From positions 365,899-429,898 of the forward strand of contig BEIQ01000001.1 in NCBI GenBank assembly GCA_002898275.1: a DNA stretch of 64,000 nt, written 5' to 3'. Under the pieces are notes generated by a model. The model did not search any database, was not told the origin of the DNA, and saw only the letters and a list, made by a program, of their open reading frames with translations. Made by a program: the position numbers and the translations under genes. Below are positions 1,308-11,607 of the stretch, one piece after another (positions within the stretch are counted from its first letter, which is position 1; each line of letters opens with the position of its first letter). The stretch comes from a bacterium HR40. Lineage in GTDB: Bacteria > Pseudomonadota > Alphaproteobacteria > Geminicoccales > Geminicoccaceae.

Positions 1308-1883
1308 CTAGGGCAGGACTGCTGCAAGGGGGCCGTAGCGAGGCGCGGCGATCCAGCGGTAATAGAGCTGCTCGGGTTGGCGGAAGAGGAGGCCGACGAG
1401 CGGCTCGAAGCGATGGAAGAGTTCGGCCACGATCACGCTCTCGCCGACCTCGAGGCGCAGCGCCCCGAGCTCGGCGGCACCGCCCGGCGGGCCGACGCGG
1501 CTGGAAACCGTCGCTGCCGGCGGCCACACTCGCTGCCAGAGGACGACCGGCCGGATTCCCGTCTCGTTGCGCACCCCGCTCACGATCACCGCGCCGTCGG
1601 CAGCCGGTCCGAACGGAGCGGCGATCGCGGCGGTCGCGCGGAGCGCCTCTTCGAGATCGGCCTCGTGCAGTTCTCGGGCGCGGGCGGTGAGCTCGGCCGC
1701 AGCGGCAGCGGCGCGCCCGAGGCGATACTCGGCGAACAGCCGCCAGCCGAGGTCCAGCACCCCGAGCAGGAGCAGCACGAGCACCGGCGCCACGAGCGCG
1801 AACTCGACCGCTGCCACCCCGCGATCCGAGGCGAGCGAGCGAATGGGGGAGGGCAGGCGGATACGGATGGGCGACCAGGTCAT
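1308..1883 (-). CDS. TadE-like pilus assembly protein
   Basis: A 191-residue protein with a short Arg-rich N-terminus, then a TadE-type hydrophobic segment beginning with the conserved acidic motif (GVAAVEFALVAPVLVLLLLG, about residues 22-41). The rest is a predicted extracytoplasmic domain without recognised motifs. The ATG at 1883 overlaps the stop of the preceding TadE-like gene (ATGA), so the two are translationally coupled. TadE/TadF minor pseudopilins belong to tight-adherence (Flp) type IV pili. The ATPase, secretin and Flp pilin genes are not in this window. Function assigned by family only. Confidence 0.8.
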   Translation of the reverse strand: MTWSPIRIRLPSPIRSLASDRGVAAVEFALVAPVLVLLLLGVLDLGWRLFAEYRLGRAAAAAAELTARARELHEADLEEALRATAAIAAPFGPAADGAVIVSGVRNETGIRPVVLWQRVWPPAATVSSRVGPPGGAAELGALRLEVGESVIVAELFHRFEPLVGLLFRQPEQLYYRWIAAPRYGPLAAVLP

Positions 1884-2497
1884 TCGGTGGGGAAGGGTTC
1901 GTTGCGCACGGCGGTGGCAGCGGCGATGGTGATGGCGCCCTCGGGCGGGAAGAACGCGCCCACGAGAGGGGTGACGAAGCGCCACCGGTAGCGGGCCCGA
2001 TAGAGCACGACCTCGTCGGGGCCACCGGCTCCGGGCCGCCCCATGTCGGCGTCCCATTGGCCATTGCCGTTGACATCGCGGTAGCTCTCGCCCGGGTCGC
2101 GGACGCCATTGCCGTTGCGGTCGTCCCAGGGCTCGGGCTGGCCGATCGAGGAGAAGTCGGGATAGACCAGGGTTTCGAACTCCAGTCGCGCCGGGTCGAC
2201 GAAGGTGCCGGCGCGGGCGGCGAGGACGGCCTGGATCGCCTCCTCGCGGCTCGCGGCGCCGAGCGTGCGGCCGGTGATTCCGAGCCGGGCCGCCTCCGCT
2301 ACCGCGCTCTCGATGGCCATGCGGGCGGTGAAGAAGAGCGCGAACTCGAACACGCCGACGAGCAGGGCGACGAGAACCGGCAGCAGGATGGCGAACTCGA
2401 CGAGCGTGGCGGCGCGCTCGTCGGTGGCGAGGCGCCGGGTTCGCGACCGGCGTCCGCGGGCGACATCGCGCGCCGGGGTCCGCGACCGCGGTCGCAT
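1880..2497 (-). CDS. TadE-like pilus protein with EF-hand-like acidic loops
   Basis: A 205-residue protein. It has a basic N-terminus, then a TadE signature and one transmembrane helix (about residues 31-57, ATLVEFAILLPVLVALLVG). Residues 126-151 contain two Asp/Asn/Gly-rich loops (DRNGNGVRDPGE and DVNGNGQWDAD) like calcium-binding EF-hand or dockerin loops, which is unusual for a minor pilin. It starts 4 bp after the stop of the TadG-like gene and overlaps the next TadE-like gene, so the three form one operon. The ATG at 2497 was preferred over an upstream in-frame start lying inside the TadG-like gene. Confidence 0.8.
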   Translation of the reverse strand: MRPRSRTPARDVARGRRSRTRRLATDERAATLVEFAILLPVLVALLVGVFEFALFFTARMAIESAVAEAARLGITGRTLGAASREEAIQAVLAARAGTFVDPARLEFETLVYPDFSSIGQPEPWDDRNGNGVRDPGESYRDVNGNGQWDADMGRPGAGGPDEVVLYRARYRWRFVTPLVGAFFPPEGAITIAAATAVRNEPFPTE

Positions 2498-2501
2498 CGC
2501 C

Positions 2502-3779
2502 TCATTCCGCGATCCTGAGGGCAGCGAGCTCACTGCCGATCTGCCGGAAGGCGGCGCGCAACTCGGCATTGGTCGGGGAACGGAAGAAGTGCGCCGGGCT
2601 GGTGGCGCATTGCCGCATGATCACGTCCGCCCAGGCGGGAGCCTGGAAGGTAACGGTGTAGACGAGGATGCCCCGCGCCTTCATGTTGTCGCAAAGGACG
2701 AGGAGATTGCGGTCGGCGCCGCTGTCGTTGACCTCGTCGTAGACACGGGTTTCGTTGTCGCCATCGGTCATGATCACCACCGCCTGCAGCACTTCCTCGG
2801 CGCGCGGGTGGCGCGGATCTTCCCCCCACAGCCCTTGCCAACGCCGCGACAGCACCCGCCATCCCCAACGCGCGCCCATATCGATCCGCGTGGTGCCGGA
2901 GGGGGTGAGCGCGGCGATGGTGTCGAGCACCACGCGCTTGGTGCGTCGCAGGGGCAGCAACCGCGGCGGGCAGGGCGGGTTGTAGACGCCGGCACCGCTG
3001 CGGCGATCGCCGCGGTGCAGACCGCCTGCGGCGATTCCTTCGCTCGGCACGAACCAGGCGTTGCCCTCGGGTGGCCGGTCGCTGAGCGCGTTGGCGTCGC
3101 CCGGTCGCGCCTCGACGCAGCCGCGCCACGGTGACACGTTCCGGTCGGCAGGCAGCAGCCAGTCGCGGTGATGGTTGCCGACGTTGACGCGCGCACTGAA
3201 GGGCACGACCGCGACCCGGAGCAGATCCGACTCCTTTTCGGGGCCGAACACGATCCCGACGAGATCCGTGGCTGCCTGCTTGAGCGCCTGGATCTTGCCG
3301 CAGCAGGCCATGGAGCCGGTGACGTCGAGCACGAGCGCGAGCTCCATGGGTTGAGCAGCACGCGCGACCACCGTCCGCACGGCGAGGGGCACGCTGTCGA
3401 TGCGGGCGAGCCGCATCAGCGTGGTCGGCAGACGGGCTTGCGCTTCCACGGTGATCCGGCCGCTCGCCTCGTCATAGCTGACCTCCACTCGGTCGAGCTC
3501 GACACCGAGAAAGCCGTCGGCGAAGTTGGTACGCAACAGGCGTTCGACCGTCGGCGCGAACTCGCTGGTGCCGAGCCGCGCGCCGGCGGCGAGGGCCGCG
3601 GCATCGGCTGCCTCGGCGAGGCGGCTGCGGGCGAGCCAATAGCGGCCGGCATCGAGCGCGAGCCCGGCCGTGAGGAGCAGCGGCAGGAGGGCGAACGCGA
3701 CGATCGTCGCAACGGCGCCCCGCTCGTCGGCGTAAAGGGCCGGATCGTCCGGATGCGGGGTAGCGGGCGGCGGAACCAT
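2502..3779 (-). CDS. TadG-like pilus-associated protein with von Willebrand factor A domain
   Basis: A 425-residue protein (ATG at 3779; a GTG at 3791 would add four residues). A TadG-type N-terminal membrane segment (ERGAVATIVAFALLPLLLTA) is followed by an Ala-rich region, then a vWA domain from about residue 146. The metal-ion-dependent adhesion site is visible: DVTGSM at about 152-157, with a second element in IVIMTDGDNET-type sequence near residue 335. vWA domains bind protein ligands through a divalent cation, so this is probably a surface or periplasmic component of the Tad pilus. It is first in a three-gene operon with the two TadE-like genes. Confidence 0.85.
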   Translation of the reverse strand: MVPPPATPHPDDPALYADERGAVATIVAFALLPLLLTAGLALDAGRYWLARSRLAEAADAAALAAGARLGTSEFAPTVERLLRTNFADGFLGVELDRVEVSYDEASGRITVEAQARLPTTLMRLARIDSVPLAVRTVVARAAQPMELALVLDVTGSMACCGKIQALKQAATDLVGIVFGPEKESDLLRVAVVPFSARVNVGNHHRDWLLPADRNVSPWRGCVEARPGDANALSDRPPEGNAWFVPSEGIAAGGLHRGDRRSGAGVYNPPCPPRLLPLRRTKRVVLDTIAALTPSGTTRIDMGARWGWRVLSRRWQGLWGEDPRHPRAEEVLQAVVIMTDGDNETRVYDEVNDSGADRNLLVLCDNMKARGILVYTVTFQAPAWADVIMRQCATSPAHFFRSPTNAELRAAFRQIGSELAALRIAE

Positions 3780-4105
3780 GGCGGGTGACACCGGCGTGGG
3801 AGACCCTGCGGACTCGCCCGACCTTTCGCATGCCTTTCTTGCAAATCCGTTAACAGCGGAGCCGCGGTGCGGCGATCGTGCATCATATTATGACCGACGC
3901 TGGCACAGCGATATCGAACCAGCGCTCGAAGAAAACGTTCCATCCCCTTGTCATGGGCCCGTTTCCTGTCCGATGCAGGCGTCCGTCGCAGGGACGTGGC
4001 GAGGGAAAGCGGTCGCTTGACGGTCGGATCCTTCGGCAGGCACATTAGGTCTTGCGTGGCGACGGGTAGTCCGCGCCGCGCAATCCGAGCAGCGGAGGAC
4101 TGCCG
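3780..4105. promoter_or_regulatory. Divergent intergenic region between tadG-like gene and small peptide gene
   Basis: This 326-bp region has no convincing gene. It is AT-richer than its surroundings near 3840-3900. On the minus strand, CATAATATGATG (within 3888-3900) could supply a -10 for the pilus operon, and a TTAAC half-site lies at about 3851. On the plus strand, TTGACG at 4017-4022 followed about 18 bp later by CACATT is a weak promoter candidate for the 4106 gene. All of these are pattern matches only. Confidence 0.35.
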
Positions 4106-4309
4106 ATGACCTCGGAGGCAACCGAGAAGGCCTCGGCCGGCGAGCGCAAGGCGCTCGAGCGGCGGGCTTTCCTGAGGCGGTTTGGAACGGCTGCCGCCGC
4201 CGCGCCGGCCGCCATGGTGCTCCTGTCCTCGCGACAGGGTGCAGCGTTCAGCAACGGCGGCAATAAGGGCGGTCGGAGAGGCAGCCCTGGCCTCGGCTTC
4301 TCCGGCTGA
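4106..4309 (+). CDS. Small Tat-leader-like peptide with Gly-rich C-terminus
   Basis: A 67-residue protein preceded by a good Shine-Dalgarno (GGAGG at about 4095). The N-terminal 20 residues are charged; residues 19-26 (RRAFLRRF) resemble a twin-arginine motif and are followed by an Ala-rich hydrophobic stretch (GTAAAAAPAAMVLL). The remainder is short and Gly/Asn/Ser-rich (AAFSNGGNKGGRRGSPGLGF). After signal cleavage only about 20 residues would remain, too few for an enzyme. A strong hairpin follows 9 nt after the stop, then a putative kinase gene. It could be a peptide substrate for that neighbour, a small secreted peptide, or an unrelated Tat-signal protein. I do not recognise the family. 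Confidence 0.65.
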   Translation: MTSEATEKASAGERKALERRAFLRRFGTAAAAAPAAMVLLSSRQGAAFSNGGNKGGRRGSPGLGFSG

Positions 4310-4317
4310 GCCGCGTG

Positions 4318-4348
4318 GGCTGGGCTCGGGGCTTGCCCGGGCCCAGCC
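4318..4348 (+). terminator. Strong intercistronic hairpin (partial terminator or attenuator)
   Basis: GGCTGGGC at 4318-4325 pairs with GCCCAGCC at 4341-4348, extended inward by five more pairs (one G-U) around a 5-nt loop, giving a 13-bp stem. Only a weak pyrimidine tract follows (TCTCCC). It lies between the small peptide gene and the kinase-like gene, so it could lower read-through into the kinase or stabilise the upstream mRNA. Confidence 0.6.
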
Positions 4349-4447
4349 TCTCCCGGCTGCGTCTTCGCAGTGGAGGCGCAGTCCACTCCGTCGACCGCAG
4401 CGCGGTATCGAATCCATCCCCAATAGCGGCAGAGGTCATGCTCGGCG

Positions 4448-5668
4448 ATGCCTGCCAACCCGCCGTCGGACCGTTTCGCGCTCGTGGACTTCGACGATCT
4501 CGGGCTCGCCTGTCATCTGGCGAGCGGGCGAGTGGCGGTCGTCGACGGGAACCACCGCGAGGCGTTGCGCGCGCTCGCCTCGGGCGGCTCCTGGGCGGCG
4601 GCGGTTCGCCAGCATGCGAGGGTATCCGGGCTCGAGGAGAGGGTGGCAGCGCGTCACCTGCGCCGCTTCCTGCGGCAGCTGACGTCCCCGCTGCTGCCGC
4701 CTAGCCGTCCGGCCCCCGATTCCCACCCAGCGCCAGCTCGCTCGGAGCGCACCTACGCGCCAGGGCCCCGACCGGTGCGACTGCGGATCGACGGCCTGCC
4801 CAACCTCGCCATCTGCCTCGAGAGCATGCTCGAGCCCTGCCGGACCGATGCGACGGCCGCGGTCGAGCTTGCCGCGGTGCGAATAGGGCGGCGTATCCGG
4901 CTGCTGCGCGACGGGGTGGCGCATGCCGAAGTGACGACGCTGGCCGACGCCCGCGGCCTGCTCGTCTTGGAGCTGCTCTTCGCCTCCCACGCCGACACGG
5001 CCTTTCTCGCGGTGTTGCACGCCGCCGGCATCGCCGTGGACGGCGACGCCTGGCTGCTCGCCGGCGAGAGCGGCTCGGGGAAGAGCACCCTTGCCGCCGC
5101 TCTGCTGGCCGTCGGGCATGGTTTCGTGACCGACGATTATGCGCCGCTTGCCGCCGCCTGCGGTCGGCTCGTGCCGGTGCCCTTCGGCCTCTCGGTGAAA
5201 AACGGGTCGCTTCCCCTGCTGCGTGCCCATTTCCCCGACCTCGAGCGCGCCCGCGAGCTGCGCTGGGGCGGGCGGCGGCTACGCTATGTCGTGCCGCCCA
5301 ATCGGGTTCGAGCGCCCCTCGCGGTCAGCCGGTTGCTCTTTCCGGTCTACGATCCGCTCTCGCCGCCGGAGCTCGTGCCGCTCTCGCCGCGGGACGCCTT
5401 CCTGCTCGCCGCCGCAGCGGGCGGCTGGTACGCGGGCGAACCCGCGCGACTCGCCGAACTGGTGGCTTGGTTTCGGGCGCGTCCGGCGCACATGCTCGTC
5501 TATCCCGACACCGCTACCGCTTTGCGGCTGCTCGAGCAGCTGGCGGGCAGGCCGCTCAGTGCAACGTCTCCACCGCCAGCCGCAGATACCAGCCCGCTCC
5601 GGACAGATCCTCCTCGAGCTTCAACGTCACCATGGGTGTCGGAAGCCTCTCCCTCAGCCGCCAGCTGA
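4448..5668 (+). CDS. HPr-kinase-like protein with putative N-terminal PqqD-like domain
   Basis: A 406-residue protein. Residues 206-214 form a Walker A loop (GESGSGKST) and 226-230 a FVTDD element matching the second acidic motif of HPr kinase/phosphorylase. The catalytic core spans about 110-370. Residues 18-80 look like a PqqD-type fold pattern (LASGRVAVVDGNHREAL through HLRRFLRQL), a peptide-binding chaperone domain in peptide-modifying systems; this part is weak. The last ~45 residues are Ser/Pro-rich and overlap a convergent gene. HprK-like kinases outside sugar transport can phosphorylate peptide precursors, as in some lasso peptide clusters. The preceding 67-residue peptide is the obvious candidate partner, which is inference. 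Confidence 0.75.
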   Translation: MPANPPSDRFALVDFDDLGLACHLASGRVAVVDGNHREALRALASGGSWAAAVRQHARVSGLEERVAARHLRRFLRQLTSPLLPPSRPAPDSHPAPARSERTYAPGPRPVRLRIDGLPNLAICLESMLEPCRTDATAAVELAAVRIGRRIRLLRDGVAHAEVTTLADARGLLVLELLFASHADTAFLAVLHAAGIAVDGDAWLLAGESGSGKSTLAAALLAVGHGFVTDDYAPLAAACGRLVPVPFGLSVKNGSLPLLRAHFPDLERARELRWGGRRLRYVVPPNRVRAPLAVSRLLFPVYDPLSPPELVPLSPRDAFLLAAAAGGWYAGEPARLAELVAWFRARPAHMLVYPDTATALRLLEQLAGRPLSATSPPPAADTSPLRTDPPRASTSPWVSEASPSAAS

Positions 5669-6128
5669 TCTGGCGCTCGCCCCGGGCGAAGACGAAGCTC
5701 TCGCCGCGCTGCCAGCGCAGCGGGTACCAGACAGGTGCGGCGAGACAGAGATCGATGTCCCGTGCCAATCGCGCGTAGGCTGGCTCGAGGGAAACCGGGT
5801 CGAAGGCACCCTCGGGGTGGCCGCGGCAGGCGTAGACGGCTCCCGGATAGCCCTCGCCTTCGATCTCGCAGCGGTCGAACCCGGGCAAGAGCGACTGCGC
5901 CGCCCAGTGTCGTTCGGCAAGTGGATGGTCCCGCAGATCGGCGAAGCCCGACCTCCGGACTTCGACCAACCGGGCGAGGGCATGGCAGAGCGCGGGCGCG
6001 GTTCTTTCGCCAGGCGGCACCGGCGTGGCCTCGTGCGTTGCGGGTGGCGGCACGATCGCGGGTTCCGGGGGTGCGGGCTGCGGCGCACAGGCGGCGCACA
6101 GCGAGGCCGTGATCAGGACGCGGCGCAT
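5556..6128 (-). CDS. Exported protein of unknown function (possible lipoprotein)
   Basis: A 190-residue protein with a short signal peptide (MRRVLITASLCAAC, lipobox-like) and a Pro/Ala-rich linker. A Trp/Arg/Cys-containing domain follows (about residues 45-190) that I do not recognise. The ATG at 6128 lies 6 bp after the stop of the FNR-type regulator gene, so the two are probably co-transcribed. Its last 113 bp overlap the 3' end of the kinase-like gene on the opposite strand. Cys residues in the mature part (about 111 and 118 downstream of the linker) could form a disulfide. No function is assigned. Confidence 0.7.
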   Translation of the reverse strand: MRRVLITASLCAACAPQPAPPEPAIVPPPATHEATPVPPGERTAPALCHALARLVEVRRSGFADLRDHPLAERHWAAQSLLPGFDRCEIEGEGYPGAVYACRGHPEGAFDPVSLEPAYARLARDIDLCLAAPVWYPLRWQRGESFVFARGERQISWRLRERLPTPMVTLKLEEDLSGAGWYLRLAVETLH

Positions 6129-6134
6129 CGCCGG

Positions 6135-6854
6135 CTAGAGGCCGGCGATGGCGGCGAGGCGGGAGGGATCCAGGATCCGCACACTCGAGCGGCCTTCGAG
6201 GCGGATCAGACCCTCGCGCCGCAGGACGGTGAACGTGCGGCTCACCGTCTCGATGGTGAGCCCGAGATAGTCGGCGATCTCCAAGCGTCCCATCGGCAGG
6301 TCCAAGCGTTCGCCCGGTGGCACCCCACGGCGTTCGGCGAAGCGGAGCAGGAAGGTGGCGACGCGCTCTTTGGCCGACTTGCGGCCAAGCACCAGCATAT
6401 GTTCGTGACTGGCGGCGAGCTCCGTCGACGCGCGGGCGAGCAGGTTCTGTTCGAGATGCGGATATTCGCCGAGAAGGACGATGAAAGGGGCGCGACGGAA
6501 GGCGCACAAGCGCGTCGCCGTCACCGCTTCGGCGGAATAGACATAGTGATTGCCAAAGGCGAGGCCGATGAAGTCGCCCGCGACGAGGAAGCCGACGATC
6601 TGCCGCCGCCCGTCCTCGAGCAGCTTGTAGAGCTGCACCACACCCTCGACGACGGTGAACACGTCCTCGGCCGGATCGCCCTCGTGGAAGAGGGTGTGAC
6701 CGGGAGTGGCGTGCACCGAGCGCGCGATGCGCGTGAGGCGGGCGAGCTCGCTCGCCGAGAGCACGCTGCAGATGGCGGTGTCCCGCACCATGCACAGGTC
6801 ACAGCGGACCTGGGCCCCCCCGCAGAAGGTCGCGACGTCGGGTCGTTCGCTCAC
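6135..6854 (-). CDS. fnrL: FNR-type oxygen-sensing transcriptional regulator (Crp/Fnr family)
   Basis: A 239-residue Crp/Fnr protein. The N-terminal Cys cluster C11, C18, C21 and C29, plus one internal Cys in TATRLCAFRR, matches the four-ligand pattern of oxygen-labile [4Fe-4S] FNR proteins. A cyclic-nucleotide-binding-like beta roll spans about 40-150. The HTH recognition helix (LTIETVSRTFTVL) carries the E, S and R residues that in FNR contact TTGAT half-sites. An exact FNR box lies 72 bp upstream, suggesting autoregulation, and an identical one lies in the nirI-nirS intergenic region. FnrL is the usual alphaproteobacterial name; FixK-type proteins lack the N-terminal cysteines. Confidence 0.9.
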   Translation of the reverse strand: MSERPDVATFCGGAQVRCDLCMVRDTAICSVLSASELARLTRIARSVHATPGHTLFHEGDPAEDVFTVVEGVVQLYKLLEDGRRQIVGFLVAGDFIGLAFGNHYVYSAEAVTATRLCAFRRAPFIVLLGEYPHLEQNLLARASTELAASHEHMLVLGRKSAKERVATFLLRFAERRGVPPGERLDLPMGRLEIADYLGLTIETVSRTFTVLRREGLIRLEGRSSVRILDPSRLAAIAGL

Positions 6855-6925
6855 GCTGCGACCTCCGAGCCATGGCTCCCGGCTAGCAGTCCCTCCGGAG
6901 CCGAGAGTTGTGCTAGCAGGGCTCT

Positions 6926-6939
6926 TTGATCCAGGTCAA
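6926..6939. promoter_or_regulatory. FNR box TTGATCCAGGTCAA
   Basis: TTGAT-N4-GTCAA matches the FNR/Anr consensus TTGAT-N4-ATCAA at 9 of 10 positions. It lies between the divergent fnr-type gene (start 6854) and the plus-strand gene starting near 6993, so it could control both. The identical 14-mer recurs at 60093-60106. Confidence 0.8.
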
Positions 6940-6992
6940 TGCCGTACGTCCTGCAGGCTGCGCGGTGGGGAGAGCAATCGCGGTTCGGGTCC

Positions 6993-7583
6993 ATGCCTTT
7001 GGCGCTCGCTTGGCGGATCCGCCAGCTTTCGCCGAACTCTTTGCGCGATCTCTGGCCGGTGGTCGAGGCCGGCGGCGAGAGCACGCCGCGCGCCGTGTGG
7101 CTGGACCGCTGGCGCGCCTGGCTGCGACGCGCTCCGCTGCGCCGGCGAGCGGTAGCCCTCGTCCCGGCCGGCAGCACCCTGGCGCTCGCCGCCTGGTTCG
7201 CCGAGCATCGAGCCGCGACCGACGGTCTGTCCACCTACCTCGTCGTCCGGCTCTGGTGGGTGGAACCGGGACGGCCGGGTACCGTCCTCGCCGCCTGTCT
7301 TGCCGCCCTGCGCGAGGACGCCGGGCGGGGCAGCTGCCCACGGGTGAAGCTCCCCACCACCGCCCTCGCCACTCCCCTCTCTGGCGAGGTCACCTGGGAG
7401 GTCGCGGGCGCGGCGGGCTTCCGACCGGACGAGGAGGGTTGGTGGGCGCCGTCCGGCGATCCATGTTGGCAGCGGGAAGCATCGGGAGGGGACGACGAGA
7501 GATGCGCCGCTTCGCTATCGGGATCCTGCTCGTTGGCCTCGTCTCCGGTCTCTCGGGACCGGCGCGGGCCGCGGAACTCGTGA
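6993..7583 (+). CDS. Hypothetical protein (possible acetyltransferase-like fold)
   Basis: A 196-residue open frame with codon use like its neighbours and no signal peptide. It is rich in Trp, Arg and Leu. The middle part (RAVALVPAGSTLALAAW, then LVVRLWWVEPGRPGTVLAAC) has an alternation loosely like GNAT acetyltransferases, but no acetyl-CoA loop is clear. I prefer ATG 6993 because the in-frame ATG at 6939 overlaps the FNR box. The 3' end overlaps soxS by 82 bp, which is long, so the last ~27 codons are suspect. Position after an FNR box suggests oxygen-responsive expression. Function unknown. Confidence 0.55.
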   Translation: MPLALAWRIRQLSPNSLRDLWPVVEAGGESTPRAVWLDRWRAWLRRAPLRRRAVALVPAGSTLALAAWFAEHRAATDGLSTYLVVRLWWVEPGRPGTVLAACLAALREDAGRGSCPRVKLPTTALATPLSGEVTWEVAGAAGFRPDEEGWWAPSGDPCWQREASGGDDERCAASLSGSCSLASSPVSRDRRGPRNS

Positions 7584-7882
7584 TGTTCGAGAGCGCGTTG
7601 TGCGAGTGGTGCCGGGCCTGGCACGCGGAAATCGGCCCGATCTATCCGAAGACGCCGGAGGGCCGACTGGCGCCCCTGCGCCGGGTCGACATCGCGCAAG
7701 CGCGGCCGGCAGATCTCGACTTCATCGAGGGGGTCCGCTACACGCCGACCTTCGTGCTGGTGGACGCCGGCCGCGAGATCGGGCGGATCGTCGGTTATGC
7801 GGGGGAAGAAGCGTTCTGGGGGCAGCTCGCCGAACTGGTGCAGAGGCTCGCCCCACCGACGGGACAACGGGCGACGGATTGA
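7502..7882 (+). CDS. soxS: SoxS, periplasmic thioredoxin-like protein of sulfur oxidation
   Basis: A 126-residue protein with a signal peptide (to about A24) and a CxxC redox site C34-E-W-C37. The following sequence (AEIGPIYPKTPEGRLAPLRR, then YTPTFVLVDAGREIGRIVGY) is characteristic of SoxS, the thioredoxin that in Paracoccus keeps the SoxY cysteine reactive. A Shine-Dalgarno (GGGAGGGG at about 7484) supports ATG 7502. Reductant probably comes from the ccdA-like membrane protein at the end of the sox locus. It sits upstream of soxY, separated by a 278-bp promoter region. Confidence 0.88.
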   Translation: MRRFAIGILLVGLVSGLSGPARAAELVMFESALCEWCRAWHAEIGPIYPKTPEGRLAPLRRVDIAQARPADLDFIEGVRYTPTFVLVDAGREIGRIVGYAGEEAFWGQLAELVQRLAPPTGQRATD

Positions 7883-7898
7883 GGGCGCATTTCGGCTC

Positions 7899-7937
7899 TT
7901 GCAATATTAACGATCGCGAATATGATGGTCTTATCAT
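7899..7937 (+). promoter_or_regulatory. Candidate sox promoter with inverted-repeat operator
   Basis: TTGCAA (7899-7904), a 16-bp spacer and TATGAT (7921-7926) form a good sigma-70-like promoter in an AT-rich patch upstream of soxY. Overlapping the -10 is a perfect inverted repeat ATGAT-N6-ATCAT (7922-7937), a plausible operator for an ArsR-type repressor such as SoxR; no such repressor gene is in the window. The region from 7883 to 8160 otherwise shows no gene. Confidence 0.5.
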
Positions 7938-8160
7938 GATGCCGGGCCCTGCCGCTCGACGATGTGGCCGGTTGGCGGGTCCGTGGCCTCGAGCCGCGGG
8001 ATATCCACGCATGGTACGCGAGGACGAGGGAATGGCCCGGTCCCGGGTGCCCGAGACGGAAGGTTCGTCGGTCGATGGCCGGCCGTGCGCGGGTGCCCGG
8101 CGGATCCGGAACGGGGTCGAGACAGCGGGGACGGGGCAGCGGCTCCACGAGGAGGAAGGG

Positions 8161-8634
8161 ATGACGTTCGCGGTCGATATGCGGCGTTCGCGTCGCGGGT
8201 TTCTTCTGGCGCTCTGCGCCGGCACGGCGACAATGACGGTGTTCGCCCTCGGTCGGCCGGCCGCCGCGGACTTGGCGGCGGTGCAGAAAGCCATGGCCCA
8301 GGTCCTGGGGGAGCGCAAGCCGCAAGAGGGACGGGTCCAGCTCGATGTCCCCGAGATCGCCGAAAATGGCAACATGGTGCCGGTGACGGTCGCGGTCGAC
8401 AGCCCCATGACCGAAACCGACTATGTCAAGGCGGTGTACGTCTTCGCCGACGGCAATCCGCGTCCCGAGGTGGCGACCTTTCACTTCTCTCCGGTGAACG
8501 GCGAGGCCGTGGCGTCGACGCGCGTTCGCCTCGCCAAGACCCAGACAGTTTACGCGATCGCCGAAATGAGCGATGGGTCGCTGTTCATGGCGACGCGCGA
8601 GGTCAAAGTGACAATCGGTGGCTGCGGCGGTTGA
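8161..8634 (+). CDS. soxY: SoxY, thiosulfate carrier subunit
   Basis: A 157-residue periplasmic protein. A Tat signal (RRSRRGFLLAL) is followed by a mature domain ending in the diagnostic GGCGG, where C155 is the residue to which sulfur substrate is covalently attached. The ATG at 8161 has a strong Shine-Dalgarno (GAGGAGGAAGGG). SoxY pairs with SoxZ, encoded 55 bp downstream, and is exported as a complex. SoxB, further downstream, hydrolyses sulfate from the SoxY-bound intermediate. Confidence 0.96.
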   Translation: MTFAVDMRRSRRGFLLALCAGTATMTVFALGRPAAADLAAVQKAMAQVLGERKPQEGRVQLDVPEIAENGNMVPVTVAVDSPMTETDYVKAVYVFADGNPRPEVATFHFSPVNGEAVASTRVRLAKTQTVYAIAEMSDGSLFMATREVKVTIGGCGG

Positions 8635-8689
8635 TCGCGGCTATCCTCGAGCATTGGCGGTCAAGGGACAAGCGAAGGGACAGTTCTCG

Positions 8690-9022
8690 ATGGCAGAGGC
8701 GAAGCCGCGCGTTCGCGTACCGAAATCCGCCCAGAAGGGCGAGATCATCGAAATCAAGACCCTCATCTCGCACGAGATGGAATCGGGTCAGCGAAAGGAT
8801 CGCGAAGGCAATACAATTCCGAGGAAGATCATCAACCGGTTCGAAGCTTATTACAATGGCAAGCTCGTGTTCGCGATGGATTTGTTCCCAGCGATCTCGG
8901 CCAATCCCTATATCGCCTTCAAGGTGAGAATCGACGAACCGGGCGAGTTCGAGTTCCGTTGGGTCGATGACGACGGCTCGGTATACACCGAAAAGGCCAC
9001 GGTGAAGATCGAGGGCGCCTGA
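8690..9022 (+). CDS. soxZ: SoxZ, sulfur carrier partner of SoxY
   Basis: A 110-residue protein with no signal peptide, as expected since SoxZ is co-exported with SoxY through the Tat system. The family pattern is clear (KPRVRVPKSAQKGEIIEIKT, then HEMESGQRKD, then DDDGSVYTEKATVKIEG). ATG 8690 was chosen over an upstream in-frame ATG lying within soxY. It stabilises SoxY and presents the carrier arm to Sox enzymes. Confidence 0.96.
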   Translation: MAEAKPRVRVPKSAQKGEIIEIKTLISHEMESGQRKDREGNTIPRKIINRFEAYYNGKLVFAMDLFPAISANPYIAFKVRIDEPGEFEFRWVDDDGSVYTEKATVKIEGA

Positions 9023-9067
9023 GCGCCCGCAGCGAACGCCGAGGCGGATCCGGAAGATCTCGCCGCT

Positions 9068-9086
9068 CCTGTCCGGCGCGGACAGG
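9068..9086 (+). repeat. Intercistronic hairpin between soxZ and soxB
   Basis: CCTGTCC and GGACAGG form a perfect 7-bp stem with a 5-nt loop (GGCGC). No T-tract follows, so it is more likely an mRNA processing or stability element than a terminator. A second small inverted repeat (CTGCCG/CGGCAG) lies near 9130-9146. Confidence 0.4.
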
Positions 9087-9171
9087 GGAAGATCGCGGAG
9101 GGTCGCGGTCGTCCGCGGCCCGGACTTCCTGCCGCCTCCGGCAGCTGGTCGGTTCGAAGGGGATGCAACCG

Positions 9172-10863
9172 ATGCCGAGTCGCCGCGAGTTCCTCCATTT
9201 CCTCGCCGGGGTGGCGCCGCTCGTCACGGCTTTCGCCGACTTGCCGCGGGCCTTGGCGCAGCAAAAGCTGAGCTTTGACGACATTCTCGCGTTCCCACCG
9301 AAAGGACAGGTGACGATCCTCCACCTGACCGATCTCCACGCCCAGTTGGTGCCGATTTACTATCGAGAACCAGCCGTCAACCTCGGCGTCGGCGAGGCGG
9401 CGGGGCGTCCGCCGCACATCACCGGTCGCCAGCTGCTCGACCATTTCGGTATCGTTCCCGGCAGCCCGGAGGCCTATCTGCTCTCGAGCGACGACTTCGA
9501 TGCCCTCGCCAAGGCCTATGGGCGGGTAGGCGGGCTCGACCGCCTCGCGACGCTGGTCGAGGCGATCCGGGCGGAGCGCGGCGATCGGGTGTTGCTGCTC
9601 GACGGCGGCGACAGCTGGCAGGGCTCGTGGACGGCGTTGCGCACTCGCGGCCAGGACGTCATCGAGGCGATGCGGCTTTTGCGGCCGGATGCGATGACGG
9701 CACACTGGGAATTCACCCTCGGCGCCGAGCGGATCGAGGAGGTGCGCAAGACCCTCGGATTCGCCTTTCTCGCGGCGAACGTGCGGGACACCGAATGGCA
9801 AGAGCCGGTCTTCGAGGGTTTCGCCCGCTTCGAGCGGGGTGGCGTGGCGATCGGTGTCATCGGCCAGGCCTTCCCCTATACGCCGGTCGCCAATCCACGT
9901 TGGCTCATCCCCCAGTGGTCCTTTGGCATCCGCGAAGAGGAGCTGGCCGAGCTCGTCCGCAAGCTCCGCGAGGAGGAAAAGGTCCAGCTCGTGGTGCTGC
10001 TCTCCCACAACGGCTTCGATGTCGACTACCGGCTGGCGAGCCGGGTCGAGGGCATCGACGTCATCCTCTGCGGTCACACCCACGACGCGCTGCCCAAGCC
10101 TGTGGTGGTGGGACGTACTCTGCTCGTCGCCACCGGATCCAACGGCAAGTTTCTCTCGCGACTGGACCTCGAGGTCGGCGCCGACGGCATCCGCGACTAT
10201 GCCTTCCGGCTCCTGCCGGTTTTGGCCGACGTGGTGCCGCCGCAGCCGCAGGTCGCGGCGCGCATCGCGGAGCTGAGGCAGCCTTTCGTCGCCGAGCTCT
10301 CGGAAGTGGTGGCCGAGACCGAAATCCCGCTCTACCGCCGCGGCACCTTCAACGGGACGTTCGACGACGTCATCTGTGCCGCGTTGCTCGCGCGGCGGGA
10401 AGCCGAAATCGCCCTGTCGCCGGGTTTCCGCTGGGGCACAGCGCTGCCTTCGGGGATGCCGATCACGCGCGAGTTCGTCTGGAACCACACCGCCATCACC
10501 TATCCCGCCGTCTACCGCGTCGCCATGACGGGCGAGCAGATCAAGGCGATCCTCGAGGATGTCGCCGACAATCTGTTCAACCCGGATCCCTACTACCAAC
10601 AGGGTGGCGATATGGTGCGGGTGGGCAATCTGGCCTACCGCATCGATCCCGGCGCCCGCGCCGGCTCGCGCATTTCCGACCTCCGTCTGTTGTCCACCGG
10701 CGAACCTCTCGAGGCTGGTCGCTCCTACGTCGTGGCTGGCTGGGCGTCGGTCAACGAAGGGGTGGAAGGGCCGCCGGTGTGGGAGCTCGTGTTCGAGCAT
10801 CTGCGGGAGCGTCGGGTGGTGGTGCCGGAACCGGTGAGCCGGATCGAGGTCGTCGGGCGCTGA
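9172..10863 (+). CDS. soxB: SoxB, sulfate thiohydrolase
   Basis: A 563-residue periplasmic metallo-phosphoesterase-family enzyme that releases sulfate from the SoxY-bound thiosulfonate. A Tat signal (SRREFLHFLAG) is present. Metal and active-site motifs seen are TDLHAQ near residue 55, GGDSWQGS near 145, LLSHNGFDVD near 275 and CGHTHD near 300. A 5'-nucleotidase-type C-terminal domain follows. ATG 9172 has AAGGGG at a 9-nt spacing, whereas ATG 9163, three codons upstream, directly abuts it. SoxXA and SoxCD genes are absent from the window. Confidence 0.95.
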   Translation: MPSRREFLHFLAGVAPLVTAFADLPRALAQQKLSFDDILAFPPKGQVTILHLTDLHAQLVPIYYREPAVNLGVGEAAGRPPHITGRQLLDHFGIVPGSPEAYLLSSDDFDALAKAYGRVGGLDRLATLVEAIRAERGDRVLLLDGGDSWQGSWTALRTRGQDVIEAMRLLRPDAMTAHWEFTLGAERIEEVRKTLGFAFLAANVRDTEWQEPVFEGFARFERGGVAIGVIGQAFPYTPVANPRWLIPQWSFGIREEELAELVRKLREEEKVQLVVLLSHNGFDVDYRLASRVEGIDVILCGHTHDALPKPVVVGRTLLVATGSNGKFLSRLDLEVGADGIRDYAFRLLPVLADVVPPQPQVAARIAELRQPFVAELSEVVAETEIPLYRRGTFNGTFDDVICAALLARREAEIALSPGFRWGTALPSGMPITREFVWNHTAITYPAVYRVAMTGEQIKAILEDVADNLFNPDPYYQQGGDMVRVGNLAYRIDPGARAGSRISDLRLLSTGEPLEAGRSYVVAGWASVNEGVEGPPVWELVFEHLRERRVVVPEPVSRIEVVGR

Positions 10864-10866
10864 CCC

Positions 10867-11607
10867 GTGTATGGCATCGAGATCAGCGAGATCGCCGCCT
10901 TGCTGGGTGGTCTTTCCGGCTTCGCCAGCCCTTGTGTGTTGCCCCTCGTCCCGCTTTGGCTCTGCTATCTCACCGGCCTCACCCTCGACCAGCTGACCGG
11001 CGAGCGGAGGCTGGATCCCGCGCTTTCTCGGCGGCTGCTGGTGGCGGCCTTGGCCTTTGTCTCGGGCTTCGCGATCGTGTTCGTGGCGATGGGCGCGAGC
11101 GCGAGCGTCATCGGCCGTTGGCTGGCTTCCCATGCGGAGATGCTGGCGCGGCTGTCGGGGCTGCTCTTTGTCCTCTTCGGCCTCCAGTTTCTCGGCGTCC
11201 TGCGACTGCCGTGGCTCTCCCGCGAGCTGCGTGTCGATCCCGGAGGTGCCCGGGGGCTTCTCGGTTCCTTCCTCTTCGGTGTCGCCTTCGCCTTCAGCTG
11301 GACGCCCTGCGTCGGACCGGTATTGGCGGCGATCCTCGCGCTTGCCGCGCGCGAGCCCACGGCTGCCGAAGGAGCGTGGTTGCTCGCCCTCTACGCCGCC
11401 GGCCTCGGCTTTCCGTTTCTCGTCGCGGCGTTCGCGATTCGCCCGTTTCTCGGACTGGTCGCGCGCTTTCGCCGCCATCTCCGCATCGTCGAGCGGCTCG
11501 CGGGAGCGGTGCTCGCCTTCGCAGGGGCGTTGCTGGTGAGCGGCCAGTTCGACGAGCTGAGCGCTCTCGTGCTGCGGCTCTTTCCGGATCTTCCGCCAGT
11601 CGGCTAG
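10867..11607 (+). CDS. CcdA/SoxV-type membrane thiol-disulfide transporter
   Basis: A 246-residue protein with six predicted membrane helices. The two redox cysteines are in the conserved positions GFASPCVLPLVP and SWTPCVGPVL. It starts at GTG 10867, 3 bp after the soxB stop, so it is coupled to the sox operon. In Paracoccus, SoxV carries electrons across the membrane to the periplasmic thioredoxins SoxS and SoxW; here soxS is upstream. A role in cytochrome c maturation (CcdA) cannot be excluded by sequence. Confidence 0.88.
   Translation: MYGIEISEIAALLGGLSGFASPCVLPLVPLWLCYLTGLTLDQLTGERRLDPALSRRLLVAALAFVSGFAIVFVAMGASASVIGRWLASHAEMLARLSGLLFVLFGLQFLGVLRLPWLSRELRVDPGGARGLLGSFLFGVAFAFSWTPCVGPVLAAILALAAREPTAAEGAWLLALYAAGLGFPFLVAAFAIRPFLGLVARFRRHLRIVERLAGAVLAFAGALLVSGQFDELSALVLRLFPDLPPVG

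Follow-up and report, generated by a model that had tools for sequence, protein, structure and literature searches.

A precursor-like peptide and an RRE-fused HprK-like kinase as a probable minimal phosphopeptide system in the alphaproteobacterium HR40

Introduction

What a 67-residue peptide with a leader-like N terminus does beside an HprK-like protein is the question raised by a locus of bacterium HR40; the window analyzed here, meaning the whole stretch of 64,000 nucleotides, carries the two genes in the same orientation (Table 1). The preliminary description of this DNA proposed an undescribed peptide-kinase system, and that proposal is supported, the outcome of each of its three refuting conditions (N-terminal fold, adjacency in relatives, and nature of the peptide homologues) being in its favor. 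The word “undescribed” needs a qualification: the fused form with a Tat-like leader does differ from what has been recorded, but an “HPr-rel-A system” (TIGR04352 kinase, TIGR04353 PqqD chaperone) is already held in NCBIfam, and the linear polyphosphorylated peptides (LPP) of Bacillota, with the lpp cluster of Paenibacillus alginolyticus, were published in 2026 (PMC13381572). In the reading that we consider probable, the pair constitutes a minimal RiPP-like phosphopeptide system, in which the RRE would bind the leader, the kinase would phosphorylate a core Ser, and Tat would export the product.

Table 1. Features of the peptide-kinase locus, in window positions
Feature	Positions	Strand	Basis or remark
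Precursor-like peptide, 67 aa, FSNGGNKGGRRGSPGLGFSG	4106..4309	+	RR leader R19R20 to A47, short Gly-rich core
Leader block E18-A47	4157..4246	+	Tat-like RRxFLR, hydrophobic stretch, and AP; precursor alignment
Intergenic gap, two strong hairpins	4310..4447	+	between peptide and kinase genes
RRE-HprK-like kinase fusion, 406 aa	4448..5668	+	TIGR04352, Hpr_kinase_C, AlphaFold
Predicted RRE (PqqD-like) domain, residues 10-79	4475..4684	+	AlphaFold, Foldseek, profile matches
HprK/PEPCK-fold kinase domain, residues 97-365	4736..5542	+	Foldseek; H191, K212, D229, D230
C-terminal tail, residues 369-406, disordered	5552..5668	+	without counterpart in close relatives
Lipoprotein-like ORF, 190 aa	5556..6128	-	overlaps kinase tail; sits where relatives have the NTase gene

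The peptide gene, its leader, and its core

The translation of the small ORF bears out the leader-like N terminus and the Gly/Asn/Ser tail described earlier: an RR pair at positions 19 and 20 is followed by a hydrophobic stretch and a tail rich in Gly, Asn, and Ser, and a Shine-Dalgarno-like GGAGGA lies 5′ of the ORF. Because the peptide aligns over its full length with orthologues from three genomes of another genus of the same family (L031 to L033), and because pairwise dN/dS values among these four peptides range from 0.16 to 0.50, the ORF is judged to be a real gene under purifying selection. No Pfam or NCBIfam family was matched above its cut-off by the peptide, and the TAT_signal_seq model scored 10.6 against a cut-off of 16.7. 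The best FNR-box sites 5′ of the gene were no better than those in shuffled sequence, despite the nearby Fnr-type gene. The 138-base gap that separates the peptide gene from the kinase gene folds at -72.4 kcal/mol (z, -2.7; a fold as stable arose in 5 of 200 shuffles), and its predicted hairpins could damp read-through, so that more peptide than kinase would be made.

Six residues (R19, R20, A33, P34, L39, and A47, in the numbering of the window peptide) are invariant across all eight aligned precursors. Pairwise identity within the set of the window peptide plus its three nearest orthologues is 0.81 in the leader, 0.56 in the core, and 0.34 in the N-terminal tail; that a leader outlasts its core in conservation is a usual sign of RiPP recognition but is uncommon in plain signal peptides. 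The RR pair is required by Tat, whereas RREs are not known to depend on it. In close relatives the leader contains YTAPAM, an instance of the [Y/W]xxPx[hydrophobic] pattern that lasso and LPP RREs bind in leaders (PMC13381572); the window peptide has Ala instead of Tyr. As an unbiased check on the leader, sphingomonad-type precursors were gathered by their C-terminal core alone, and RR plus a hydrophobic stretch was present in all 19 that have a complete N terminus.

Since the cores of the window's branch end in GFSG, GFSA, or FS, S66 in the C-terminal GFS appears to be the best candidate for the phosphorylation site of the window peptide. Cores vary widely among relatives, and because they differ and some (L034 and L041) end without Ser, a universal phosphorylation site is not evident. 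The HPr-rel-A precursor family (L111-L113, L118-L120, L122-L126, L129, L130, L132, L133, L135, and L142, mostly Sphingomonadales, and also L085) combines an RR leader with a core that has a conserved Cys and a near-invariant C terminus like GFTC[YF]ASLQMPR. The scanned precursors of loci outside this mainly sphingomonad set matched no curated family.

Structure and family assignment of the fused kinase

The 406-residue protein had been described as a PqqD-like peptide-binding domain fused to an HprK-like kinase, and structure prediction agrees on both counts. The AlphaFold2 model, calculated from ten family sequences (mean pLDDT, 84), consists of a βββ-ααα unit at residues 10 to 79, a loose linker, the kinase domain, and disorder from residue 369. 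In Foldseek searches, the whole model matched PEPCK and HprK/P structures, as expected for the HprK fold, and the best PDB matches of the N-terminal part alone were TbiB1 with its leader peptide, followed by TfuB1 and ThcOx, all of which are RRE proteins. A profile of RRE-like sequences matched TbiB1 with an E value of 2.4e-8, the full kinase profile matched it at positions 15 to 81 (E, 4.2e-5), and sister fusions in L039, L044, and L078 exceed the Pfam PqqD cut-off. Given that hhalign comparison of the fused N-terminal profile with the discrete PqqD profile, built from few sequences, returned a weak 31% probability, the assignment relies on comparing folds and on profile searches of the PDB; by these, residues 10 to 79 are a predicted RRE with the winged-helix fold of PqqD and lasso B1 proteins.

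The P-loop and TDD motif noted in the preliminary description are in place (G206 to S213, including K212, and T228-D229-D230), as is H191. Judged by alignment, H191, K212, D229, and D230 make up the full H-K-D-D set of lasso-peptide kinases, in which this motif is conserved and essential by mutagenesis (PMC9266682); the HPr-rel-A kinases that have a separate PqqD show H-K-D-E in the motif table. Profile searches place the kinase among HprK-related families: HprK_rel_A (TIGR04352) matches residues 147 to 365 with an E value of 4.7e-18, at 65.3 bits against an equivalog cut-off of 200, and Pfam Hpr_kinase_C matches the ORF with an E value of 1.7e-5. The model of canonical HPr(Ser) kinases, TIGR00679, reaches 26.4 bits against a cut-off of 240. 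An HPr-kinase or sugar-control function of the protein is very improbable in view of the model scores and the gene context.

Compared with its relatives, the window kinase has dN/dS values of about 0.5 to 0.63, with dS near saturation, and may thus be under somewhat relaxed constraint. Its residues 369 to 406 run into the opposite-strand lipoprotein-like ORF, which had no Pfam or NCBIfam match and no homologue in the retrieved relative loci and is probably outside the peptide-kinase system.

Gene neighborhood and cassette architecture

Relatives of the pair were found by an alignment-based scan of genome contigs; a single-protein query gave none. At L031, L032, and L033 the peptide and kinase genes are neighbors in the same setting as in the window, with TadE, TadE, and TadG divergent on the 5′ side and an Fnr-type gene on the 3′ side, and directly 3′ of the kinase stands a third gene that is absent from the window locus. 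In L032 this gene encodes an NTP_transf_5 protein (PF14907; E, 2.9e-40), and an NTP_transf_5 nucleotidyltransferase (NTase) is the third gene in most relatives of the window cassette. The full set of precursor, fused kinase, and NTase genes, though with other cores, is also present in L034, L035, and L036 as well as in L039 and L078, which come from other families of the class; L041 has all three, with an RTX gene separating kinase from NTase. Loci with a separate RRE (L040, L042, L043, L084, L085, L089, and many Sphingomonadaceae) keep the order precursor, PqqD_rel_X, kinase, NTase. The kinase tree groups every fused form in one clade (97/88), sister to the separate-RRE clade; the fused clade includes two NTase-RRE-kinase proteins and the kinase of a Bacteroidota locus that has an RR precursor. 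The branches separating the fused clade from the HprK_rel_A clade have supports of 97/88 and 94/84.

Compared with this three-gene cassette the window locus is reduced, and because it lacks the third gene, the NTase partner was invisible to the preliminary description. No convincing NTase remnant was found at window positions 3501 to 8000, and among the gene calls no separate PqqD-like gene was made beside the window kinase. The absence of an adjacent cyclase or protease, noted earlier, also holds: no cyclase was called near the pair, no SpI-like leader peptidase or MsbA-like exporter was apparent among the calls around the window locus or its orthologues, and the lasso leader-peptidase family (PF13471) had no match genome-wide. 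TatC is encoded in the genome. HPr was rightly said to be missing from the neighborhood, with the correction that the genome does encode one, about 770 kb from the pair. The single NTP_transf_5 domain of the genome lies about 105 kb upstream of the pair (L077, 4581-6782; contig C1, 265080-267281), in a 733-residue NTase-RRE-pseudokinase fusion whose kinase domain has lost its catalytic residues (H to D, K to S, and the second D to R). This protein may act in trans on the window peptide. A counterpart with an intact P-loop occurs in G030 (L044, 7876-10200), where it adjoins a Gly-rich RR precursor; no RR-type precursor was found beside L077, L037, or L079.

These features bear on an alternative that we consider unlikely, namely, that the pair is a degenerate remnant left without a product after loss of the NTase. 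Such decay would account for a locus without the NTase, for a kinase C terminus that enters the opposite-strand ORF, and for a second genomic copy that is a dead kinase, but it agrees poorly with the intact catalytic residues and RRE fold, with a peptide that keeps its leader and GFS, and with a peptide dN/dS below 1. Moreover, in the LPP cluster, deletion of the NTP transferase gene left the phosphorylated products unchanged (PMC13381572).

Proteins of the RTX calcium-binding-repeat type are encoded at L034 (7520-8743), L035 (1917-3113), L041 (4803-6065), and L164 (5226-6326), adjoining the cassette at the first three loci and a precursor-like gene at the last, which suggests a secreted partner in this one branch of relatives. 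On this basis, the peptide bound by the RRE could have a regulatory or carrier role while the kinase phosphorylates another protein, such as the RTX-repeat neighbor. The lack of a single universal Ser/Thr motif in the cores also speaks for this idea, which we nevertheless consider unlikely, since no RTX gene is called beside the window cassette or L031 to L033 and since the characterized RRE-partnered kinases of the family act on the precursor itself. Phosphorylation of the peptide is the reading retained below.

Further features of the neighborhood are the TadE, TadE, and TadG/vWA genes of the window (1308-3791, minus strand), which are divergent from the peptide gene; the conservation of these surroundings in another genus (L031 to L033) points to a possible connection with Tad-type pilus assembly. 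Downstream of the pair lies the Fnr-type regulator gene (6135-6854), 3′ of which are sulfur-oxidation genes on the plus strand (7502-11607) for a thioredoxin-like protein, a probable SoxY, SoxZ, SoxB, and a CcdA/SoxV-like protein.

Co-occurrence of peptide and kinase

Of 32 genomes of the order that were searched with a profile built from eight precursors, 10 gave a match, and every one of these carries a fused RRE-kinase; conversely, the peptide was found in 10 of the 11 genomes counted as carriers of the fused kinase and in none of the 21 other genomes (Fisher P, 1.7e-7), the eleventh carrier (G026) having just a kinase fragment at a contig end. Since eight of the matching genomes supplied the profile, the informative part of this result is the absence elsewhere together with the finds in G009 and G030, which did not contribute to the profile and yielded two new kinase-adjacent precursors. 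In G003, one precursor-like gene has no kinase nearby; this genome contains, in addition, a cassette that no precursor adjoins. This gene excepted, the peptide homologues stand beside RRE-kinase cassettes and match no known Tat family, which sets them apart from ordinary Tat-signal proteins. That the peptide is nonetheless an ordinary small Tat protein lying by chance beside an HPr-type sugar-control enzyme is very improbable: the leader is Tat-like and the genome does encode HPr, but an RRE fold at the kinase N terminus, adjacent co-occurrence in ten genomes, an HPr gene 770 kb away, and a canonical HPr(Ser) kinase score of 26 bits against a 240-bit cut-off all stand against it.

Comparison with known systems

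The LPP set comprises a precursor, a discrete RRE, the HprK-like kinase LppK, the NTP transferase LppN, the SpI-like LppS, and an exporter, and LppK was shown experimentally to place several phosphates onto a single Ser in the core of a linear precursor that is bound by an RRE (PMC13381572). The window system shares with it the combination of precursor, RRE, and HprK-like kinase and the lack of a macrolactam cyclase in the neighborhood, the lasso B2 family being absent genome-wide; an uncharacterized NTP transferase is likewise shared, but by the orthologous loci and not by the window locus, and the [Y/W]xxPx-type leader motif is shared by the close relatives of the window peptide. Unlike in LPP, where the RRE is discrete and the cluster has an SpI-like leader peptidase and an MsbA-like exporter, here the RRE is fused to the kinase, the leader is Tat-like, and the host belongs to the Alphaproteobacteria rather than the Bacillota.

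To the HPr-rel-A set the locus is linked by a homologous kinase, a PqqD-like domain, an NTP_transf_5 neighbor, and an RR-leader precursor on the 5′ side. In that set, the RRE has a gene of its own and the kinase carries H-K-D-E, whereas here the RRE is fused and the motif is H-K-D-D; in addition, the window kinase stays below the 200-bit cut-off and falls into a sister clade. No papers on HPr-rel-A, NTP_transf_5, or Tat-leader RiPPs were found in the literature searched.

The tailoring enzymes of paeninodin and pseudomycoidin (PadeK, ThcoK, PsmK, and PsmN) offer a further parallel. HprK-like kinases of lasso clusters, which have the same H-K-D-D motif, phosphorylate the C-terminal Ser of the precursor, and the hexoses carried by phospho-Ser require PsmN, a protein with a nucleotidyltransferase annotation (PMC9266682); this NTase homologue acts after phosphorylation. 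The fold and the sequence profile of residues 10 to 81 resemble the lasso RREs TbiB1 and TfuB1 (PDB 5v1u and 6jx3), but those stand alone and serve lasso synthetases, and in contrast to lasso systems the genome lacks B2 and the neighborhood lacks a cyclase. The best reading is that the window system is a fused, Tat-leader variant of the HPr-rel-A set and of Bacillota LPP.

Proposed mechanism

From the domain architecture, intact catalytic motif, adjacency, co-occurrence, and leader conservation observed here, we infer the substrate, its modified residue, and the order of steps as follows. The N-terminal RRE would bind the conserved hydrophobic part of the peptide leader, and the attached kinase would phosphorylate, or perhaps polyphosphorylate, a core Ser, for which S66 of the short Gly-rich segment is the likeliest candidate. 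As the leader would also act as a Tat-type signal, the modified peptide would then be exported by Tat, and a signal peptidase would remove the leader. In most relatives, the NTP_transf_5 enzyme may add a further group after phosphorylation; in the window, either the system would do without this role or the distant RRE-bearing NTase-pseudokinase would fill it in trans. Weighing against this reading are the wide variation of the cores, the Ala in place of the motif Tyr, the missing NTase, the possibly relaxed constraint on the kinase, the low hhalign probability, the stray precursor-like gene of G003, and the TAT_signal_seq score below its cut-off.

A more specific and more tentative proposal, to which we give slightly less than an even chance, is that one leader doubles as the recognition sequence of the RRE-fused kinase and as the Tat export signal. 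With such a dual-role leader, the phosphorylated peptide, further decorated in relatives, would reach the periplasm without a dedicated leader peptidase or exporter.

Precursor peptides are now indicated for the HPr-rel-A gene set, and the linear-phosphopeptide logic of Bacillota is extended to Alphaproteobacteria and one Bacteroidota locus. In a compact two-gene system, leader binding, kinase specificity, and Tat export are directly testable, and a kinase with its own RRE could prove handy for phosphorylating peptides at chosen sites. A separate HprK-related branch (L080, L081, L082, L086, L087, and L090) has small RR proteins adjoining the kinase at two loci, L080 (8820-9206) and L090 (5540-5785), whose leaders carry YLAPSV and YAAPTL, the YxxPx pattern of RRE-bound leaders.
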